Shown here piece by piece: positions 3,003 to 16,722 of a stretch of 64,000 nt of DNA. Source of the DNA: Parvicella tangerina (lineage in GTDB: Bacteria; Bacteroidota; Bacteroidia; Flavobacteriales_D; Parvicellaceae); NCBI RefSeq assembly GCF_907165195.1, contig NZ_OU015584.1, positions 2,552,978 to 2,616,977 of the forward strand, written 5' to 3'. The notes under the pieces were generated by a model. That model saw only the letters and a list, made by a program, of their open reading frames with translations. It was not told where the DNA came from and did not search any database. The translations under genes were made by a program, and so were the position numbers. Numbering within the stretch: position 1 is the first letter of the stretch; every line of letters starts with the position of its first letter.

Positions 3003-3482
3003 TTACTTACATGATGCTTCCACAATGGTCCACTCAAAGTTTTCAATATCTTTCCACTGTTGGTTACTAATGCTAATTTCTGTTTTATACGTATAAGAAC
3101 TGTTCGGTGAGATAAATTCGTATATATCAAACGTCTTCGTTAATACAGTTGCTCCTGTTTTTGATTTGAAGACAACTTGAGCATTTATATCTTTAAGCGT
3201 AGCTAATGTTGCAGTATTCTTGATAACACACTTTAACTTCATACCTTTTACCTTCATACTGAGAAGGTTCTTGTAGATAGGTTCAGTACTTAAAGTTCCT
3301 GTCAAATACGAAGTAGCTTGTTTGCATTCTTTTAAAAACAACTCTTGCTTCAACTCTTCCTCCGTCTTAGGAGAATTGCCAGTCCCTACTTCTGTTGAGG
3401 GATCATTTGTATTGCATGATATCAAAATGATACTCCAAAACAATACTAGGCAATAAGTCAACACATTTTTCATATTATTCAT
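3003..3482 (-). CDS. putative lipoprotein, unknown function
   Basis: 159 residues with a lipoprotein signal: a hydrophobic stretch (about 7-21) ending in the lipobox LISC with Cys23, followed by an acidic, Ser/Thr-rich linker. The rest (about 55-159) is predicted beta-rich, with pattern KVKGMKLKCVIKNTA and KTFDIYEFISPNSSYTYK recalling FxLYD-type or similar immunoglobulin-like secreted domains, but I cannot name the family with confidence. It lies 19 bases upstream of the MazG-like gene on the same strand and may be co-transcribed with the island, although a surface lipoprotein has no obvious part in it. Confidence 0.7.
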   Translation of the reverse strand: MNNMKNVLTYCLVLFWSIILISCNTNDPSTEVGTGNSPKTEEELKQELFLKECKQATSYLTGTLSTEPIYKNLLSMKVKGMKLKCVIKNTATLATLKDINAQVVFKSKTGATVLTKTFDIYEFISPNSSYTYKTEISISNQQWKDIENFEWTIVEASCK

Positions 3483-3511: not shown

Positions 3512-4315
3512 TCATTCTCTCCTCCTCAATCTATTCGTTTGCTCCATCATCATCCCAAAGCAATCACCATCATCACCATCCACATGAACAAAAACATCCA
3601 GGAGGATTGAACCGATTGCGCCTTCCACTTCGTGTTTGTTCAGGTTAAAATACGTTACCCCGTGGCCTTCATACTTTCCGTAAGAGTCCTTTTTAAAACT
3701 CACACTCTTTTCCAAATCACTATCATGCAACTCAAAGTGCAGCACCGCACAAGGGTCACCGTTGATGGTGGTGTCTTTTTGATACGTGATTGTCTTGGTA
3801 GCCACCACGGCTGTTGTACTTCCATAGGCATTCACGGGGAAGCTGACCTCCTTCTCAATGCTTTCACCTAATTTAATGTCTGCCGGGGGAAGGTTAAAAA
3901 GCATGTCAAACAACATTTCGCTGCTGGGATTATTGCTAAACGTACCATCTGGCTTTAACCCTGTTGCCTCATTCGTGCCGGGTTGGTTCATCTTATCGCC
4001 CAACACTTGCTCTCCGCCTTCTACTTCAAAATCGGTGATGCTCATATCTTTCATGATAAAACTAGCGGTTTCTGGTCCGGTGCCTTCAATAGCTATGGTC
4101 CCCTCACCGATCAATCCACGAGGCTTCTCCATACCACCACAGTCCATCACCAACGTGGTTTCTCCTTTCTGGTAGTAATCATAAGCTACGGAGCTTCCTT
4201 CTTCAAAGTACAAAGAGAAGACTTCCAGGTCACCATAGATGACTTCGCGCGGAGTATCGCTACAGGCAGAGAGTAAAATAGCCAGCAACGAGATGATAAG
4301 CAGATAGGGTTTCAT
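3512..4315 (-). CDS. putative lipoprotein, unknown function
   Basis: 267 residues with the lipobox LLSAC at Cys18, so probably anchored in a membrane facing the periplasm. The mature part alternates short strands and turns, with the segments FNLPPADIKLGESIEKEV and a Thr-rich strand (TKTITYQKDTTI), reminiscent of DUF6263-like lipoproteins in which a measured quantity is tested against a default value. I do not recognise it firmly. The last residues are basic (RLRRRE). It is 29 bases upstream of the next lipoprotein gene on the same strand. Confidence 0.7.
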   Translation of the reverse strand: MKPYLLIISLLAILLSACSDTPREVIYGDLEVFSLYFEEGSSVAYDYYQKGETTLVMDCGGMEKPRGLIGEGTIAIEGTGPETASFIMKDMSITDFEVEGGEQVLGDKMNQPGTNEATGLKPDGTFSNNPSSEMLFDMLFNLPPADIKLGESIEKEVSFPVNAYGSTTAVVATKTITYQKDTTINGDPCAVLHFELHDSDLEKSVSFKKDSYGKYEGHGVTYFNLNKHEVEGAIGSILLDVFVHVDGDDGDCFGMMMEQTNRLRRRE

Positions 4316-4820: not shown

Positions 4821-4951
4821 CCCCCTCCTCCGAGGAGGGGGCTAGGGGGTGGTAAACCCACAACAACCTAATCCCCCCAACTATCAGCACTCCCCCCTCC
4901 TCCTAGGAAAACCCGTCACGCCACTGCGTGAGGGACAGGAGGTGGTAAACC
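4821..4951. repeat. 131-bp direct repeat, copy 1 (palindromic units A1 and A2)
   Basis: It starts with a near-perfect 10-bp inverted repeat around one base (CCCCCTCCTC C GAGGAGGGGG, 4821-4841), then CTAGGGGGTGGTAAACCCA, a unique-looking linker, and a second hairpin (CCCGTCACGC...GCGTGAGGG, 4911-4934) ending in GGTGGTAAAC. The same stretch with a handful of differences recurs at 5552-5683, on the other side of the DUF559 gene. Shorter versions of the unit recur through 5.3-16.7 kb. Confidence 0.85.
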
Positions 4952-4959
4952 AAAACAAC

Positions 4960-5328
4960 CTAACCACTATTAAAACTACTCTCAATCTGTTCCAAAACAA
5001 CATCCAACCTACTAAACACATCTTCATTTTCAAACCTGATCACTTTAATCCCCTGATCATTTAGAAACTGCGTTCTTCTCTTATCTCTTTCCTGTCCTTC
5101 CTTAGTAAAATGTGGCTCACCATCCAGTTCAATGGCTAGTTTTTCTTCGTTGCAGTAAAAGTCCACAACATAATATCCTACACTAAACTGTCTTCTGAAT
5201 TTCCTGCCAGCAAGTTGTTTCCCCTTTAAAAATTTCCATAACGCATCCTCAGCTGGAGTTGCATTATTTCGAAGACGTTGTCTCAACTCTCTAAGTTCTG
5301 ATTTGTTATTTACAAAGTCGTTGCTCAT
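4960..5328 (-). CDS. DUF559 family, Vsr-like endonuclease-fold protein
   Basis: 122 residues, the usual length of DUF559 proteins. An N-terminal helix with RLRNNATPAEDALWKFLK is followed by the Vsr-like nuclease core: Asp56 in VVDFYC, Glu67 and Asp69 in IELDGEPH, His73, then IKVIRFEN. These residues match the active site of very-short-patch repair nucleases, so DNA cleavage or nicking is likely, but no natural substrate is established for the family. The gene is set between two 131-bp copies of a palindromic repeat (4821-4951, 5552-5683), with the stop codon about 10 bases from copy 1. I infer a functional link between nuclease and repeat. Confidence 0.85.
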   Translation of the reverse strand: MSNDFVNNKSELRELRQRLRNNATPAEDALWKFLKGKQLAGRKFRRQFSVGYYVVDFYCNEEKLAIELDGEPHFTKEGQERDKRRTQFLNDQGIKVIRFENEDVFSRLDVVLEQIESSFNSG

Positions 5329-5399
5329 GGGGTGCTAAATAGGGAGTTGTTTAAATATAGGTATTATAATTAACATGATTTGAGCGGGTAGTGTGATTT

Positions 5400-5525
5400 T
5401 ACCCCTCCGCCTACGGCACCTCCCCTCAAAGGGGAGGTGTCACGCAGTGACGGAGGGGTAACCCACCTGTCATCCTGAGTGCAGTGCAACGCAACGAAGG
5501 ATCTCCTCAATGGGAGCACATAACT
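5400..5525. repeat. dispersed repeat units A (variant) and B
   Basis: 5400-5460 is a G/C-rich variant of unit A with nested hairpins: CCTCCCCT-caa-AGGGGAGG and TCACGCAGTGA, ending GGAGGGGTAACCCA. It is followed at about 5467-5520 by unit B, GTCATCCTGAGTGCAGTGCA...GAAGGATCTCCT...GGGAGCACAT. Unit B recurs at about 9003, 14600 and 16535. Neither unit codes for protein. Confidence 0.8.
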
Positions 5526-5551
5526 CAACTTCAGAAACCCCAATCAATCAT

Positions 5552-5683
5552 CCCCCTCCTCCGAGGAGGGGGCTAGGGGGTGGTAAACCCACAACAACCT
5601 AATCCCCCCAACTATCAGCACTCTCCCCTCCTCCGAGGAAAACCCGTCACGCCACTGCGTGAGGGTTAAGGGGTGGTAAACCC
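5552..5683. repeat. 131-bp direct repeat, copy 2
   Basis: Nearly identical to 4821-4951, including the linker ACAACAACCTAATCCCCCCA that is not part of the dispersed palindromes. The differences I count are few and clustered at the second hairpin and its 3' edge. Together the two copies enclose the DUF559 gene in direct orientation, 731 bases apart. Confidence 0.85.
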
Positions 5684-5689
5684 AACCTT

Positions 5690-6553
5690 GAGAGATACCT
5701 CACTAACACTCAATATAACATCTTCTCTAGAAGCTTTATTCTGTTAACAAAAGTTAAATCGAAAAACCCCATTTCCCGCTTATCTATTGGGTTGTACAAC
5801 CCCCCTCAGTAAAAACGACCGTTCACGAAGTTTAACAAAAATTGGGTAACCTTTTTTTTCGAACCTTTTTCACTCATAGCGTGTAAATATTAGTGAGGTT
5901 GGTCAAAGCACAGTTTGCTAACTACCATGAAAGAAGCTTTTGGCAATCCTCCCCCTTAATCCCCCTCCCAAGGGGGAATTAAAAAGTTACTATCAATTAT
6001 CCCAACAACTCCCCCTTCGGAGGGGGCTGGGGGGAGGACTACGAAAAGTGACTACTAAAGCAAAAGACTTAGTAAGACCGGGAAGCACGCAGTGATCACC
6101 CGGCCGCACTTAGACTTTGCGCATAGATCGATTCCGGAGTTCGATCAGCCTTGACTTTTTTGTTTCTTCCGACACTTCGGAATAGTGTCAAGACAAAAAT
6201 GAAAGAACACCCTTAGAACCTGCAACTAACAACAAAGAATTAAAAGCTCAAAGCGAGCAATACACACACCCGTGCTGTAAATCAATAACCCGGCTGAAAA
6301 AAAAACAAAGCCAACATCAAATCTCCCCCTCCTTCGAGGAGGGGGCTCGGGGGGTGGTAAACCACAACAACCCAAGTAAAAACAACCTGTTTAAAAGTTA
6401 AACAGTGTAATTAAAAACCAGATTGAATCAATAATTGTCATACTGAGCGAAGCGAACGTATCTCCTACTTAATAGCACCGCTAACCTTCAGGAGACGCCA
6501 CATTTCACTCAGAGTGACAGCCATAAAAAGATTCAATCCTAAAATTAAAAGTT
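5690..6553. other. non-coding tract with palindromic repeats and hairpins
   Basis: No credible gene. 5950-6045 and 6320-6362 carry C-rich units of family A (for example CTCCCCCTTCGGAGGGGG at 6009-6027). 6437-6525 carries degenerate copies of units B and C around TTCAGGAGACGCC. Between them, 6078-6192 has three hairpins in series: CCGGG/CCCGG (6078-6103), GATCGA/TCGATC (6126-6146) and GACACT/AGTGTC (6171-6189), with a T-rich stretch after the second. CTTGAC (6150) can also pair with GTCAAG (6187). 5690-5940 shows nothing I recognise. Confidence 0.6.
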
Positions 6554-7327
6554 ATGGCAAAGTATAAATCACCATTTCGCATTACCGGGAAGGTAGGCGA
6601 TATGAAATTCAGAGACGGTAAGATCGTCATGGTAGGTGACTCTTTTAATAAGCGTCCACCTTCAAAAAGAACAAAAGAAAATCAGCAAGAATTTGCAGGA
6701 ATGGCCATCAGTGCTTCGGCATTGTTACGTGCTCTTTCCAAAGCAAAAGAAGCGTTTGCTGATAAAACCACCCGCAATAGAGCATTCTCTATTATGCGAG
6801 AGATCCTAAACCTCGGTGCAGGACTGCGTGGTCAGCGTACCATCGATATTGTGACTCATAAATCCAAGCTGCTTGGCTTTGAGTTCAACGATACCGATAA
6901 GCTCGAGAATATCCTCATAGCTCCTATCAACGCTTCGGTGAATGCCGATAGAAATGAGATCGTAGTGAATATTCCGGACTTCAGCACCACGGCAGATCTC
7001 AATGCTCCGGAGTTTGCTACCCATTTTAGATTCAAACTAGCCATTGGCGTTTTGAGCAATCATGGGTTTGATAGCAATCTCAAGAAGTACCAAAGCGTAA
7101 ACGATTCGAAAGAATCACTCAATGCGATGGTTACTTCGGTTGAGATCCCCTTGGGTGGAATGGTCGGTCAAACCACCACGCTCACCGCTCAATTACCTGA
7201 TCTTCCCGTCTTAGACGCGGATGAAGTATTGATCGGAGCAGTAGGCATCGAGTTCCTGGAAATCGTCAATGGCGACTTCTACGACTTCGATACCGATAGA
7301 GGTATGCAAATCATAATAGCCGAGTAA
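6554..7327 (+). CDS. conserved hypothetical protein, unknown function
   Basis: 257 residues with no signal peptide or membrane segment. The start MAKYKSPFRITGKVGDMKFRDGKIVM, a basic KRPPSKRTKENQQEF helix, and a second half of predicted beta strands recall the layout of the DUF6266-like proteins of Bacteroidota (short glycine-rich start, helix, beta sandwich), but I cannot confirm membership. It stands alone between repeat-filled non-coding DNA on both sides and has an excellent uniform codon pattern, so I believe it is real. A hairpin with a T run at 7505-7553 could end its transcript. Confidence 0.7.
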   Translation: MAKYKSPFRITGKVGDMKFRDGKIVMVGDSFNKRPPSKRTKENQQEFAGMAISASALLRALSKAKEAFADKTTRNRAFSIMREILNLGAGLRGQRTIDIVTHKSKLLGFEFNDTDKLENILIAPINASVNADRNEIVVNIPDFSTTADLNAPEFATHFRFKLAIGVLSNHGFDSNLKKYQSVNDSKESLNAMVTSVEIPLGGMVGQTTTLTAQLPDLPVLDADEVLIGAVGIEFLEIVNGDFYDFDTDRGMQIIIAE

Positions 7328-7386
7328 ATTAATAACAAGATGATTAGACCAAGCTAGCGTCAAAGATCAAACATCTGGCGTCCAGA

Positions 7387-7428
7387 GTCTAGCGTCTAGC
7401 ATCTAGCGTCTAGCGTCTAGCGTCTAGC
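7387..7428. repeat. 7-bp tandem repeat (GTCTAGC) x6
   Basis: Six consecutive 7-mers: five are GTCTAGC and the third is ATCTAGC. Degenerate copies (AGCGTCAAAG, GGCGTCCAGA) flank both sides from about 7355 to 7435, and a related GAGTCTAGCGTTC occurs at about 16498. The period does not keep a reading frame, but no gene is overlapped. Slippage would change its length. Confidence 0.85.
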
Positions 7429-7450
7429 GTCAAAGATCTAATATCTATTA

Positions 7451-7553
7451 AAATGAAGGCTTATGAATATGCATAGCACAAGCGAGGAAGATACTTCCTC
7501 ATAGATCCCTTGTTGGAATCCCGATAGGTTTCGGGGCTGGCAAGGGATTTTTT
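7451..7553 (+). ncRNA. candidate structured RNA ending in a terminator
   Basis: Two hairpins stand close together: GAGGAAG-atac-TTCCTC (7484-7500) and ATCCCTTG (7505-7512) with CAAGGGAT (7541-7548), which encloses an inner stem CCCGA/TCGGG (7520-7535). A run of six T follows. This could be only the terminator of the gene ending at 7327, but the extra hairpin and purine-rich lead-in resemble compact Bacteroidota RNAs such as Flavo-1. I cannot confirm that family without a covariance search. Confidence 0.4.
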
Positions 7554-8994: not shown

Positions 8995-9253
8995 CCTCCG
9001 CCATCCTGAGTCCAGTGCAACGTAGCGAAGCCTTGCCTACCGACAGGTAGGGATCTCCCCAAACAAAACATCCCCAAATCGTTCTATCGTTAATCCAACC
9101 ATGCAGCCAACATCAAAAGTCCTCCCCTTGGAGGGGAGGTGTCACGCAGTGACGGAGGGGTAACCCACCTATCATCCTAAGTGGAACACAAAACATCCCC
9201 CTCCTCCGAGGATAGCCTGTCACACCACTGCGTGAGGGCCAGGGGGTGGTAAA
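8995..9253. repeat. dispersed repeat units B, A and A variant
   Basis: Unit B at 9003-9060 has an extra small hairpin (GCCTTGCCTACCGACAGGTA) inserted before its GGATCTCCCC end. Unit A variants follow at about 9122-9165 (CTCCCCTTGGAGGGGAG, then TCACGCAGTGACGG) and 9197-9253 (with CCACTGCGTGAGGG and GGTGGTAAACC). No gene is present between 8902 and 9255. Confidence 0.8.
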
Positions 9254-9255
9254 CC

Positions 9256-12200
9256 CTACATATTCCTTCTATACTGACCGCCAACCTCAAACAAGGCATC
9301 CGTGATCTGCCCTAGAGAGCAATACTTCGTAGCCTCCATCAACGCCTCAAAAACATTCTGATTCTGAATAGCTGTCATCTGTACTTTATTCAGCTCTTCT
9401 GCAGCTCGGTCTTCATTCTTTTTATGAAGTGCAGCCAACATATTGATCTGATATTGCTTTTCTGTCTCCGTAGCTCTGATCACCTCCTTAGGTAGAATGG
9501 TTGGAGAACCTTTTGAACTCAAGAACGTGTTCACCCCAATAATCGGGAATTCGCCATTATGCTTCAATGTTTCATAGTATAACGACTCCTCCTGGATCTT
9601 ACTGCGCTGATACATCGTTTCCATCGCTCCTAACACTCCTCCTCTTTCGGTAATTCTATCAAACTCCGTTAACACAGCTTCTTCAACCAAGTCGGTTAAC
9701 TCTTCGATGATGAAAGCCCCCTGAATAGGATTCTCATTTTTGGCTAAACCTAACTCCCTGTTGATGATCAACTGGATGGCCATCGCTCTTCTTACCGACT
9801 CCTCAGTAGGCGTAGTGATCGCCTCATCATAAGCATTCGTATGTAACGAGTTACAGTTATCGTAGATCGCGTACAACGCCTGTAGCGTTGTCCTAATGTC
9901 GTTAAAGTCAATTTCCTGTGCGTGGAGTGATCTTCCTGAAGTCTGGATGTGATACTTCAGCATCTGAGCTCTCTTGTTGGCTCCATACTTCTTCGCTAGC
10001 GCTTTCGACCAGATCCTTCTCGCCACTCTACCAATTACTGCGTATTCTGGATCAATTCCATTGGAGAAAAAGAACGATAAGTTTGGTCCGAATTTATCAA
10101 TATCCATTCCTCTGCTCAGGTAATACTCTACATACGTAAACCCATTCGCTAAGGTCAACGCTAACTGCGTAATCGGATTAGCACCGGCTTCTGCAATGTG
10201 ATAACCTGAGATGGATACCGAATAGAAGTTTCTCACTCCGTGATCGATAAAATACTCTTGTACGTCTCCCATCAGTCTCAGCGCAAATTCTGTACTGAAT
10301 ATACAGGTATTTTGTGCCTGATCTTCTTTCAGGATATCTGCCTGAACGGTTCCTCTTACTTTCGTTAACGTCTCCGCCTTGATCTTGTTATACACGTCAG
10401 CTGGTAGCACCTGATCTCCGGTAACCCCCAACAGCATCAAGCCTAAACCATCATTTCCTGCAGGTAACTCTCCCTGATACTGAGGTCGGTCCACACCTTT
10501 CTCTTTGTAGATCGCTTCGATCTTCGCTTCAATCTCTTTTTCCAGTCCGTTCTCCTTGATGTACTTTTCACAGTTCTGATCGATCGCTGCATTCATGAAG
10601 AATCCCAGCAGCATCGGTGCCGGACCATTGATCGTCATGGATACAGAGGTTGCTGGGTGAGACAAGTCAAACCCAGAGTATAATTTCTTCGCATCATCTA
10701 AACAACAAATCGAAACTCCAGAGTTACCAATCTTACCGTAGATATCTGGTCGGATGTTCGGATCATTACCATACAAAGTCACCGAATCAAATGCCGTACT
10801 CAAACGTTTTGCCGGCATATCCAGACTCACATAGTGAAACCTTCTGTTGGTTCTTTCCGGACCACCTTCACCTGCAAACATTCTTGTTGGATCTTCTCCT
10901 TCTCGCTTAAACGGGAACAACCCAGCCGTGTAAGGAAACTCTCCAGGAACATTCTCCTGTAAACTCCATCGCAACACATCACCCCAACCTTTGTATTTCG
11001 GCAAACACACTTTTGGGATTTGTAAATGACTCAAGGATTCGGTATACGTTTTAATCGACAATTCTTTATCTCTTACCTTAAAGGTATAGACAGGTGCCTT
11101 GTACTTTTCAACCTTTCCTTCCCACGCTTCCAGCAGCTGCCAGTTGTGTGGATCAAGGTCCATTTTTACTTTTTCAAACTGTTCAGTCAAAACTTTAATT
11201 AATCGATCTTTATCATCTGGTTCAGAACGTTTTATTGAATCAATAGAACCCTGTAAAGCATATAATTCTTCTGCCACCTTCACTTGTTCATCTACCCACT
11301 TATCGTACGCCCTGTTGTTCTCAGAGATCTCAGATAAATACCTCGTTCTTGCTGGAGGGATGACAAAGATTTTCTCTGACATTTCTTTGGTGATCTCAAA
11401 CTGCGAATTCAAGTCTGCATTGGTTTTCTCTACAATTAAATCCATTAATGATTTATAGAGTGAATTCATCCCAGGATCATTGAACTGAGAAGCGATCGTT
11501 CCAAACACGGGCATATCTTCCGCTTTAGCATCCCACATATTATGGTTACGCATATACTGTTTTCGCACATCTCTTAACGCATCCAACGCTCCTCTTTTAT
11601 CAAACTTATTCAACGCCACCATATCGGCAAAGTCTAACATATCAATCTTCTCTAATTGCGTGGCCGCACCAAACTCAGGCGTCATTACATATAGCGAGAC
11701 ATCACTATGATCCATAATCTCCGTATCCGACTGTCCGATTCCTGAGGTTTCTAAGATGATCAAGTCATACTTAGCTGCCTTTAAGATCTCCAACGCCTCA
11801 GAGACATGTTTACTCAAGGCCAGGTTACTCTGACGCGTAGCCAACGAGCGCATATACACCCGTTCATTTTTGATCGCATTCATTCTGATACGATCCCCTA
11901 GCAATGCACCTCCCGTCTTTCTCTTCGATGGATCAACCGACACAATAGCGATTGTCTTGTCTTTAAAGTCGATCAAAAAGCGCCTTACCAATTCATCGAC
12001 CAAAGAAGACTTACCCGCACCACCAGTTCCGGTAATTCCTAAAATAGGCGTCTCGATCTGGGCAGCCTTTTCATGGATCGTTTCCAACATGGCTTTATTC
12101 GCATCAGGAAAGTTCTCCGCAGCCGAGATCAAGCGGGCAATCGCATAAGGATCTTTCTTTTCCAAATCCTTTGCTTCACCATTGATATTATCACCTGTTG

Positions 12201-12636
12201 GGAAATCACATTTCTCGATCATATCGTTGATCATTCCCTGTAACCCCATCTCTCTTCCGTCATCTGGATGGTAAATACGTGCAATACCGTACGCATGTAA
12301 TTCTTCGATCTCAGAAGGCAGAATAGTACCTCCTCCACCACCAAAGATCTTGATGTGTTCAGCTCCTTTCTCTTTCAATAAATCATACATGTACTTGAAA
12401 TACTCAATATGACCACCTTGATAGGAAGTCATTGCAATCGCCTGAGCATCTTCCTGAATGGCACAATTCACCACTTCCTCTACACTTCTGTCGTGCCCCA
12501 AATGGATCACCTCACAGCCTGTAGCCTGAATGATCCTCCTCATGATATTGATCGCTGCATCATGTCCGTCAAATAACGAAGCGGCAGTAACAATTCTAAT
12601 CTTATTTTTAGGGGTATATGGTGCTATTTTCTCCAT
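9256..12636 (-). CDS. icmF: IcmF, fused isobutyryl-CoA mutase
   Basis: 1126 residues in the typical IcmF order. Residues 10-145 are the coenzyme B12-binding domain with the axial-ligand motif around D23-G-H25. About 185-430 is a MeaB-like GTPase chaperone domain with P-loop GTGGAGKS (203-210). About 540-1126 is the acyl-CoA mutase barrel. The enzyme interconverts isobutyryl-CoA and n-butyryl-CoA, and related fusions use isovaleryl/pivalyl-CoA. It links branched-chain amino acid breakdown to central metabolism. It stands alone with its own promoter: a TATATTTG box on the minus strand lies at 12669-12662. Length and all domains are intact. Confidence 0.95.
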
Positions 12637-14549: not shown

Positions 14550-14800
14550 TTCAGGAGACTCTTCCTCCGAATTTTCGGAGTCAGAGTGACAAACAACCCG
14601 TCATCCTGAAGGAAGTGCAACGCACTGAAGGATCTCCCCAATGGGAGCACATCAGGAACCCCTCACAAAATATCCCCCCTCCTCCGAGGAGGGGGCTAGG
14701 GGGTGGTAAACCCAATCCCCCCACCTAGAAACACATTACATACCTTCAGGAGACTCTTCCTCCGATTCCGAAACTTCGGAACGGAGTCAGCGTGACATGA
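14550..14800. repeat. composite of dispersed repeat units C-B-A-C
   Basis: Unit C (TTCAGGAGACTCTTCCTCCGA...GAGTCAG.GTGAC) at about 14551-14591, unit B (GTCATCCTGA...GAAGGATCTCC) at 14599-14640, unit A palindrome at 14674-14712, and another unit C at 14752-14796. Unit C is recognisable as unit B read on the other strand: both start or end with GTCA.CCTGA and TCTCCT. So B-A-C is an element with inverted ends around a C-rich palindrome. The same B-A-C block stands at 16533-16722, on the far side of the next gene. Confidence 0.8.
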
Positions 14801-16474: not shown

Positions 16475-16532
16475 CTCCACAACCATTATCAAGCGTTAAG
16501 AGTCTAGCGTTCAACACACCAAAACCCACTTG

Positions 16533-16722
16533 TCATCCTGAAGCGAGTGCAACGCACTGAAGGATCTCCTCAAACAAAACATCCCCCCTCCTCCGAGGAG
16601 GGGGTTAGGGGGTGGTAAACCCAACGTCCTCACCTACCCTCAAAACGAAAACCACAGAAATACCTTCAGGAGACTCTTCCTCCGATTCCGAAACCTCGGA
16701 ACGGAGTCAGCGTGACAAACAT
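16533..16722. repeat. composite of dispersed repeat units B-A-C
   Basis: B (GTCATCCTGAAGCGAGTGCA...GAAGGATCTCCTC) at 16534-16571, A palindrome and GGTGGTAAACCCA tail at 16583-16622, C at 16666-16719 with the inner hairpin TTCCGAAACCTCGGAA. Same order and spacing as 14599-14796. 16475-16532 has only a degenerate GAGTCTAGCGTTC word, and 16723-16770 nothing. Confidence 0.8.

Follow-up and report, generated by a model that had tools for sequence, protein, structure and literature searches.

At the locus under study, a gene for a small DUF559 nuclease is enclosed by two direct copies of a composite repeat, and related palindromic units recur elsewhere in the 64,000-nucleotide stretch of the Parvicella tangerina genome that was analysed (hereafter, the window). 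The features are as follows, by window position.

4821 to 4951, plus strand: left composite repeat, consisting of palindrome A (CCCCCTCCTCCGAGGAGGGGG and CTAGGGGGTGGTAAACC), a linker, and hairpin B (GTCACGCCACTGCGTGA with the tail GGTGGTAAACC)
4960 to 5328, minus strand: DUF559 (PF04480) gene of 122 amino acids, a Vsr/EDxHD-fold nuclease (Pfam E-value 6.5e-33, alignment, AF2 and Foldseek)
5400 to 5461, no strand assigned: clover-like palindrome just upstream of the DUF559 start (self-complementary match and hairpin scan)
5469 to 5503, plus strand: GTCATCCTGA...GAAGGATC repeat of the CGTC/TGTC-tagged type, belonging to the composite unit
5552 to 5682 (or 5683), plus strand: right composite repeat, 94-95% identical to the left copy
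6325 to 6363, plus strand: palindrome A unit, variant copy
9121 to 9183, plus strand: second clover-type palindrome, 92% identical to 5419-5481
9198 to 9255, plus strand: hairpin B unit, abutting the 3' end of the icmF-like gene
9256 to 12636, minus strand: icmF-like gene (fused acyl-CoA mutase/GTPase) carrying no insert (protein alignment, IcmF family)
14600 to 14634, plus strand: GTCATCCTGA-type repeat
14675 to 14712, plus strand: palindrome A unit
16532 to 16566, plus strand: GTCATCCTGA-type repeat
16584 to 16621, plus strand: palindrome A unit

The left and right composite repeats are direct copies, one on each side of the DUF559 gene, and the near-identity that the original prediction ascribed to them (4821-4951 and 5552-5682/5683) is borne out at 94-95%. 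Between the DUF559 start and the right composite repeat lie the clover-like palindrome, with the outer stem TTACCCCTCCG/CGGAGGGGTAA and the inner hairpin CACCTCCCCTCAAAGGGGAGGTG, and then the GTCATCCTGA...GAAGGATC repeat. Besides the two flanks, the window contains four tails ending in GGTGGTAAACC (at 6351, 9243, 14700 and 16609), and a variant of the GTCATCCTGA-type repeat is present near 9002. An earlier count of at least eight further copies therefore holds only if different palindromes are pooled, and falls to the four further tails if a single unit is meant. The linker had also been regarded as unique to the two DUF559 flanks and as a sign of joint duplication of flank and gene. However, the linker-bearing composite occurs outside the window at genome positions 2527738-2527867 and 2528564-2528693, where there is no DUF559 gene, so the claim of uniqueness is refuted and the linker provides no evidence for a joint duplication. 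Duplication of gene plus linker was therefore rejected as the source of the two flanks. Orthologues of the icmF-like gene in other Bacteroidia carry a DUF559 module in frame, and thus the uninterrupted window gene serves as an empty-site reference.

Other features were observed beside the element. A run of CTAGCGT-type heptamers with 14/21-bp spacing occupies positions 7354-7458, and related short TATCAACTGTCAA-type repeats lie upstream at genome positions 2527.3-2527.6 kb. Positions 456-2983 encode a 730-amino-acid ORF that appears by eye to begin with a GIY-YIG-like region, followed by an ATPase and a LexA-like end; it adjoins a MazG-like ORF, with which it may form a defence or stress module.

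The P. tangerina genome (3.98 Mb, one contig) carries two DUF559 genes in all. The second, at genome positions 2539759-2540121, lies outside the window and 18 kb upstream of the window copy, to which it is 91% identical at the nucleotide level over 374 bp, and it is flanked by the same units. The tail pattern GGGGGNNNGGGGGTGGTAAACC, with up to two mismatches allowed, yields 17 matches in the genome versus none for the reversed control pattern, and the repeat unit is therefore not a product of chance. All 17 tail copies are on the plus strand within 42 kb (genome positions 2527754-2569598). A 242-bp composite-unit query gives 15 genome matches, 14 of them inside this stretch and the last a 35-bp fragment at 1865463. 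GC-rich hairpins with arms of at least 8, for which the genome was covered by searches and sampled stretches, are dense in the same 42 kb, and nine 20-kb control stretches together contain two, both unrelated. None were found at the icmF loci of ten same-genus or same-family genomes. The units occupy intergenic gaps beside ordinary genes. Three units also surround a 166-amino-acid ORF unrelated to DUF559 (genome positions 2527738-2528693, outside the window), which represents either a gene that became enclosed by units or the remains of an element whose DUF559 was lost.

We examined how palindrome number relates to DUF559 in 296 Bacteroidia genomes that are at least 90% complete, with kinship controlled by family. 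Palindromes were counted as matches to CCCCTYN{0,8}RAGGGG minus those to a reversed control, a pattern that catches one family of shapes. The mean excess per genome is 0.44 where DUF559 is absent (n=173), 4.6 with one gene (n=51), 8.0 with two or three (n=49) and 30.4 with at least four (n=23). The association is significant (Mann-Whitney p=5e-13), whereas the reversed control pattern shows no difference with DUF559 in these genomes (p=0.60). Within-family comparisons are positive in 27 of 34 cases (p=2e-4). Counter-examples exist on both sides: 30 of the 123 genomes with DUF559 have no palindrome excess, and five of the 173 without it have an excess of at least ten. A correlation between repeat copy number and DUF559 genes, as originally proposed, is thus seen both across the class and inside families, and the palindromes are statistically dependent on the nuclease gene. 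This correlation alone cannot give the direction of cause. For GTCATCCTGA-/GTCAT-type repeats the relation to DUF559 across the class is weak (rho 0.30), and eight genomes have at least ten such repeats and no DUF559; the idea that DUF559 is the missing enzyme for all CGTC-type repeats was rejected on these grounds.

The association is also evident at individual loci. Around 47 free-standing DUF559 genes, hairpin density is 2.77 per kb within 250 bp and about 23-fold lower (0.09-0.13 per kb) at distances of 1-10 kb, as scored with a generic detector that skips imperfect stems. At 43 of 63 free loci the upstream and downstream flanks share a repeat, mostly in direct orientation, compared with 0.5% of 660 control positions from the same stretches, and the match vanishes when flanks are swapped between loci. 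Flanking units, which had been predicted for each DUF559 gene, accordingly accompany both genes of this genome and 43 of the 63 free loci.

Similar flanks are present beyond the class. Among 21 DUF559 loci from other groups, drawn from a plasmid-record collection that includes misfiled chromosomes, hairpins stand on either side of the gene in 12, and the two flanks match each other (score of at least 44) in 12, compared with 3% of controls. The flanked loci include Neisseria, Sinorhizobium, Sphingomonas, Azospirillum, Deinococcus and cyanobacteria, such that plasmid-borne relatives with these flanks span the alpha- and betaproteobacteria, Deinococcus and cyanobacteria. In the same set, no flanking repeats were found at the E. 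coli and Geobacillus loci. In Sphingomonas, one DUF559 gene is located between sufB and sufC and another between transhydrogenase subunit genes. A single Sphingomonas strain (loci L310-L312) has DUF559 genes at three places, all flanked by palindromes: in sufBC, in the NAD(P) transhydrogenase operon and next to dnaG. In two Deinococcus species (L314 and L322) the DUF559 gene lies in the same hpa gene cluster but at different junctions, a difference that provides a natural test of mobility. Among these records, NZ_CP119142.1 and NZ_OL790696.1 are complete N. gonorrhoeae and E. coli chromosomes filed as plasmids.

DUF559 also resides within other genes. Twenty matches in long reading frames proved to be modules inserted in frame in LeuS (at two sites), IleS, MetH, IcmF and RecG; here the coding sequence itself contains hairpins next to the DUF559 domain. 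Further hosts are HsdR, acetate-CoA ligase (acs), RecJ, ValS, a ligase-associated DEXH helicase, TruB, guanylate kinase, an alpha-xylosidase-like enzyme and an IGHMBP2-like helicase; a restriction-modification methylase and PurQ (C-terminal) were identified by eye. A search with the in-gene DUF559 alignment returned Bacteroidota alone among its best 80 matches. Palindromes lie in frame in protein genes of relatives (for example L147, L155 and L203); the window element is intergenic. In one of these genes (leuS of L155, amino acids 512-659), five identical in-frame palindromes, one per 35 amino acids, adjoin the DUF559 insert.

Empty sites in relatives define the boundaries of the module. With an 800-nt leuS query from which the element had been removed, 29 of 30 genus mates match across the junction, and the carrier has an insert of about 447 bp relative to them. 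In the icmF genus, eight genomes carry full inserts and 12 are uninterrupted at the same codon junction, the empty alleles being scored by continuous matches over that junction. Where both flanks of an icmF insert could be anchored, its length minus the 11-bp empty linker is a multiple of three. The same genus contains a gene-less form of 74 bp that retains both hairpins (L203), as well as short remnants at the junction (L188 and L190). A fixed insertion site with empty alleles in relatives was observed for the leuS and icmF elements, not for the window copy. In these cases DUF559 belongs to a mobile, precisely bounded module that is inserted in frame and has empty, gene-less and remnant counterparts.

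The ends of in-gene elements are inverted, with a hairpin in each, as in L206 (AGCCTCACCCCGGCCCTCTCCAAAGGAGAGGG ... CCCTCTCCTTTGGAGAGGGCCGGGGTGAGGCT), where the terminal inverted repeats read AGCCTCACCCCGGCCCTCTCC...GGAGAGGGCCGGGGTGAGGCT, whereas the repeats of free forms are more often direct. These terminal hairpins are missing from the empty leuS and icmF alleles. Tails in the icmF elements read GGTGAGGC, compared with GGTGGTAAACC in P. tangerina. No target-site duplication was resolved at the in-gene junctions, where sister alleles are too diverged for reading at the base level. Conserved T:G mismatches in the terminal repeats were considered as a Vsr signal and rejected, since L149 and L150 have them but the ends of L206 and L209 match perfectly. 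Group I and II introns were rejected because Rfam gave no intron match within the inserts; the sole match lies outside the insert, in L069. The inserts of 450-680 bp comprise hairpin ends and a DUF559 domain of about 105 amino acids, which would leave no space for a splicing domain, and none was seen; judged by this length, an intein is also rejected. No known transposase was found in the inserts of about 450 bp, which hold DUF559 alone.

The window DUF559 protein carries the conserved pattern E..D..ExDG..H..D, and residues E15, D44, E55, D57, H61 and D70 are invariant in an alignment of 22 diverse copies. A DUF559 profile matches Neisseria 3HRL (E-value 2e-32) and 3R3P, the catalytic domain of the homing endonuclease I-Bth0305I (E-value 5.4e-8). 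Foldseek with the AF2 model (pLDDT 87) likewise recovers 3HRL, 3R3P/I-Bth0305I (2.7e-5) and, more weakly, Vsr (1CW0). By profile and predicted fold, DUF559 therefore resembles I-Bth0305I.

A tree of 98 DUF559 rows places the in-gene copies in one clade of 33 rows (support 99/92), where those from leuS, metH, ileS, icmF, recG, acs and recJ are interleaved (acs plus recJ, 100/94). This interleaving indicates that one DUF559 lineage, which occupies many host genes, has moved among them. The window pair belongs to a separate, mainly intergenic clade of 17 (100/92). For the copies in icmF, pN/pS is 0.08-0.32 and synonymous change is saturated. These copies are thus old residents whose protein has stayed functional. 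They are largely inherited, so that present-day jumping is not demonstrable from them, and dating of DUF559 transfer by dN/dS was rejected because of the saturation. The architecture, the association at both genome and locus level and purifying selection are established by the data, and the gene behaves together with its hairpin-forming repeats as a single mobile element.

We considered whether cause might run in the opposite direction, with DUF559 serving as a repair or surveillance nuclease (VSP-like) for hairpins or mismatches that is retained where palindromes abound, the palindromes being moved by something else. DUF559 does have the fold of Vsr, and in Caulobacter the DUF559 protein VsrA, predicted to be a mismatch endonuclease, elicits an SOS response in cells without a cytosine methylase (PMC12907096), an effect that fits a nuclease active in vivo. 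However, a repair gene needs no palindromic bounds, yet DUF559 is bounded in several phyla, and it sits in frame in leuS, icmF, recG and other genes whose relatives have empty sites. Moreover, neither a methyltransferase nor any other Pfam match was found in the three near neighbours of the window gene that were scanned (3003-3482, 3512-4315 and 6554-7327). We regard this explanation as unlikely.

A second alternative is that a DUF559 element inserts into or next to REP-like palindromes already in place, whose mover is a different enzyme, such as a RAYT. Insertion of this kind has a precedent in ISPpu9, which inserts into REP sequences (PMC8450116), and insertion into a repeat would also yield flanking direct repeats. 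However, genomes with Y1_Tnp (PF01797) but no DUF559 have a mean palindrome excess of 0.60, which is background level (n=96), whereas those with DUF559 but no Y1_Tnp have 7.56 (n=18). Partial rank correlations with palindrome excess are 0.41 for DUF559 (p=2e-13) and 0.03 for Y1_Tnp (p=0.65), and RAYT/Y1 was rejected as the true palindrome partner on this two-by-two comparison together with the partial correlation. In addition, the empty alleles of the in-gene form lack the terminal hairpins. Target preference is accordingly improbable as the source of the pattern.

Ordinary local duplication, in which recombination between repeats copied a 42-kb region including DUF559 with no dedicated enzyme, would account for every copy being in one region and one orientation and for units around an unrelated 166-amino-acid ORF, but we consider it very improbable, because the copies are units of 50-230 bp in separate intergenic gaps rather than copied gene blocks, and the pattern recurs independently across the class and in other phyla.

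Our preferred explanation, which we consider probable although well short of certain, is a homing-like selfish element bounded by palindromes, in which the DUF559 gene is the coding portion and of which the shorter gene-less units are non-autonomous copies. We infer that DUF559 itself moves the palindromes, and the DNA reaction is proposed on the same basis. The element has hairpin-forming units at its ends, direct around many free genes and inverted in the in-gene form, with a single Vsr/EDxHD-fold nuclease as its inner cargo. Most likely, DUF559 would nick or cut at a palindrome or at an unoccupied target site, after which repair templated by an element-bearing copy would install the palindrome, the gene or both there, as in homing or gene conversion. 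The direct repeats, being recombinogenic, could then shed the gene to leave solo palindromes and remnants. In P. tangerina, the element is intergenic, with two gene copies 18 kb apart and units that have spread only within 42 kb, in one orientation. More speculatively, the direct repeats at the window gene might permit excision of a circle and its reinsertion at another unit, which could account for this spread.

Bacterial genomes commonly carry REP-like palindromes, and outside the RAYT-linked group we know of no mover for them. With a small nuclease that follows the palindromes in dose, in flanks and in phylogeny, the identity of the mover becomes directly testable. We see an even chance that DUF559 nucleases mobilise REP-like palindromes of a widespread class, in what would be a new class of mobile element whose sole protein is a Vsr-fold nuclease and which has hairpin-bearing ends, non-autonomous copies and a form translated unspliced in essential genes. 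The in-gene form is a translated, apparently unspliced selfish insert in aminoacyl-tRNA synthetases and other core enzymes, and bears on how proteins acquire insertions as well as on the annotation of DUF559 as a LeuS, IleS, MetH or RecG domain. In the open-access literature, no title or abstract naming DUF559 was found to connect it with palindromes, although an earlier description in a subscription-only source is possible.

The working principle, selfish palindromes with a dedicated nuclease and homing-like residence, has known precedents. As in REP/RAYT REPtrons (PMC3733652, PMC8266576), short palindromes, single or paired, flank a small enzyme gene and also stand elsewhere without it, the repeats occupy intergenic and at times intragenic positions, and their copy number tracks the enzyme. 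Unlike in REPtrons, the enzyme is a PF04480 Vsr/EDxHD-fold protein and not an HUH Y1 transposase (PF01797), there is no GTAG tag (tails being GGTGGTAAACC, or GGTGAGGC in icmF elements), the spread is local (17 of 17 copies in 42 kb, one orientation) and not dispersed genome-wide, and housekeeping genes harbour the module in frame, its inverted ends bearing hairpins. A REP/RAYT-like partnership with a Vsr-like nuclease, as first suggested, therefore stands with respect to copy-number tracking, flanks and independence from Y1, but not with respect to the local copies and the inverted in-gene ends.

I-Bth0305I (PDB 3R3P), an EDxHD homing endonuclease, shares the DUF559 fold and is related to it in sequence (profile E-value 5.4e-8), and elements of this type, like those in leuS and icmF, are inserted at a constant position in a conserved gene that relatives have as an empty allele. 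I-Bth0305I is listed with group I intron homing endonucleases (PMC3943268) and is named a mobile intron protein in entry 3R3P, whereas no intron was found in the DUF559 inserts, which consist of hairpin ends plus DUF559 in 450-680 bp. No description of hairpin ends or gene-less copies was found in the homing-endonuclease literature consulted. ShiLan-type insertions (PMC11855218) are similarly readable in the host frame, free of intein and intron, and homing-like in their evolution; however, they carry an out-of-frame HNH nuclease in phage genes, whereas DUF559 is in the host frame of bacterial core genes and is bounded by palindromes.

Rickettsia palindromic elements (PMC3733652, PMC10969869) also lie in frame in protein genes, and the GTCAT-type (GTCATCCTGA...GAAGGATC) repeats within the P. 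tangerina unit are like the CGTC-tagged REPs, a group described from Bacteroidetes and said to 'apparently lack a dedicated transposase' (PMC3733652). Both groups differ from the present element in having no known enzyme. IS elements and MITEs share the terminal inverted repeats of the in-gene forms, but the DUF559 inserts contain no known transposase. Confinement to 42 kb and in-gene modules with inverted ends make the element more like a homing element than like a RAYT system. Since it departs from the defining features of REPtrons, introns, inteins and IS elements with known transposases, it would represent a class of its own if DUF559 were proven to be the mover.
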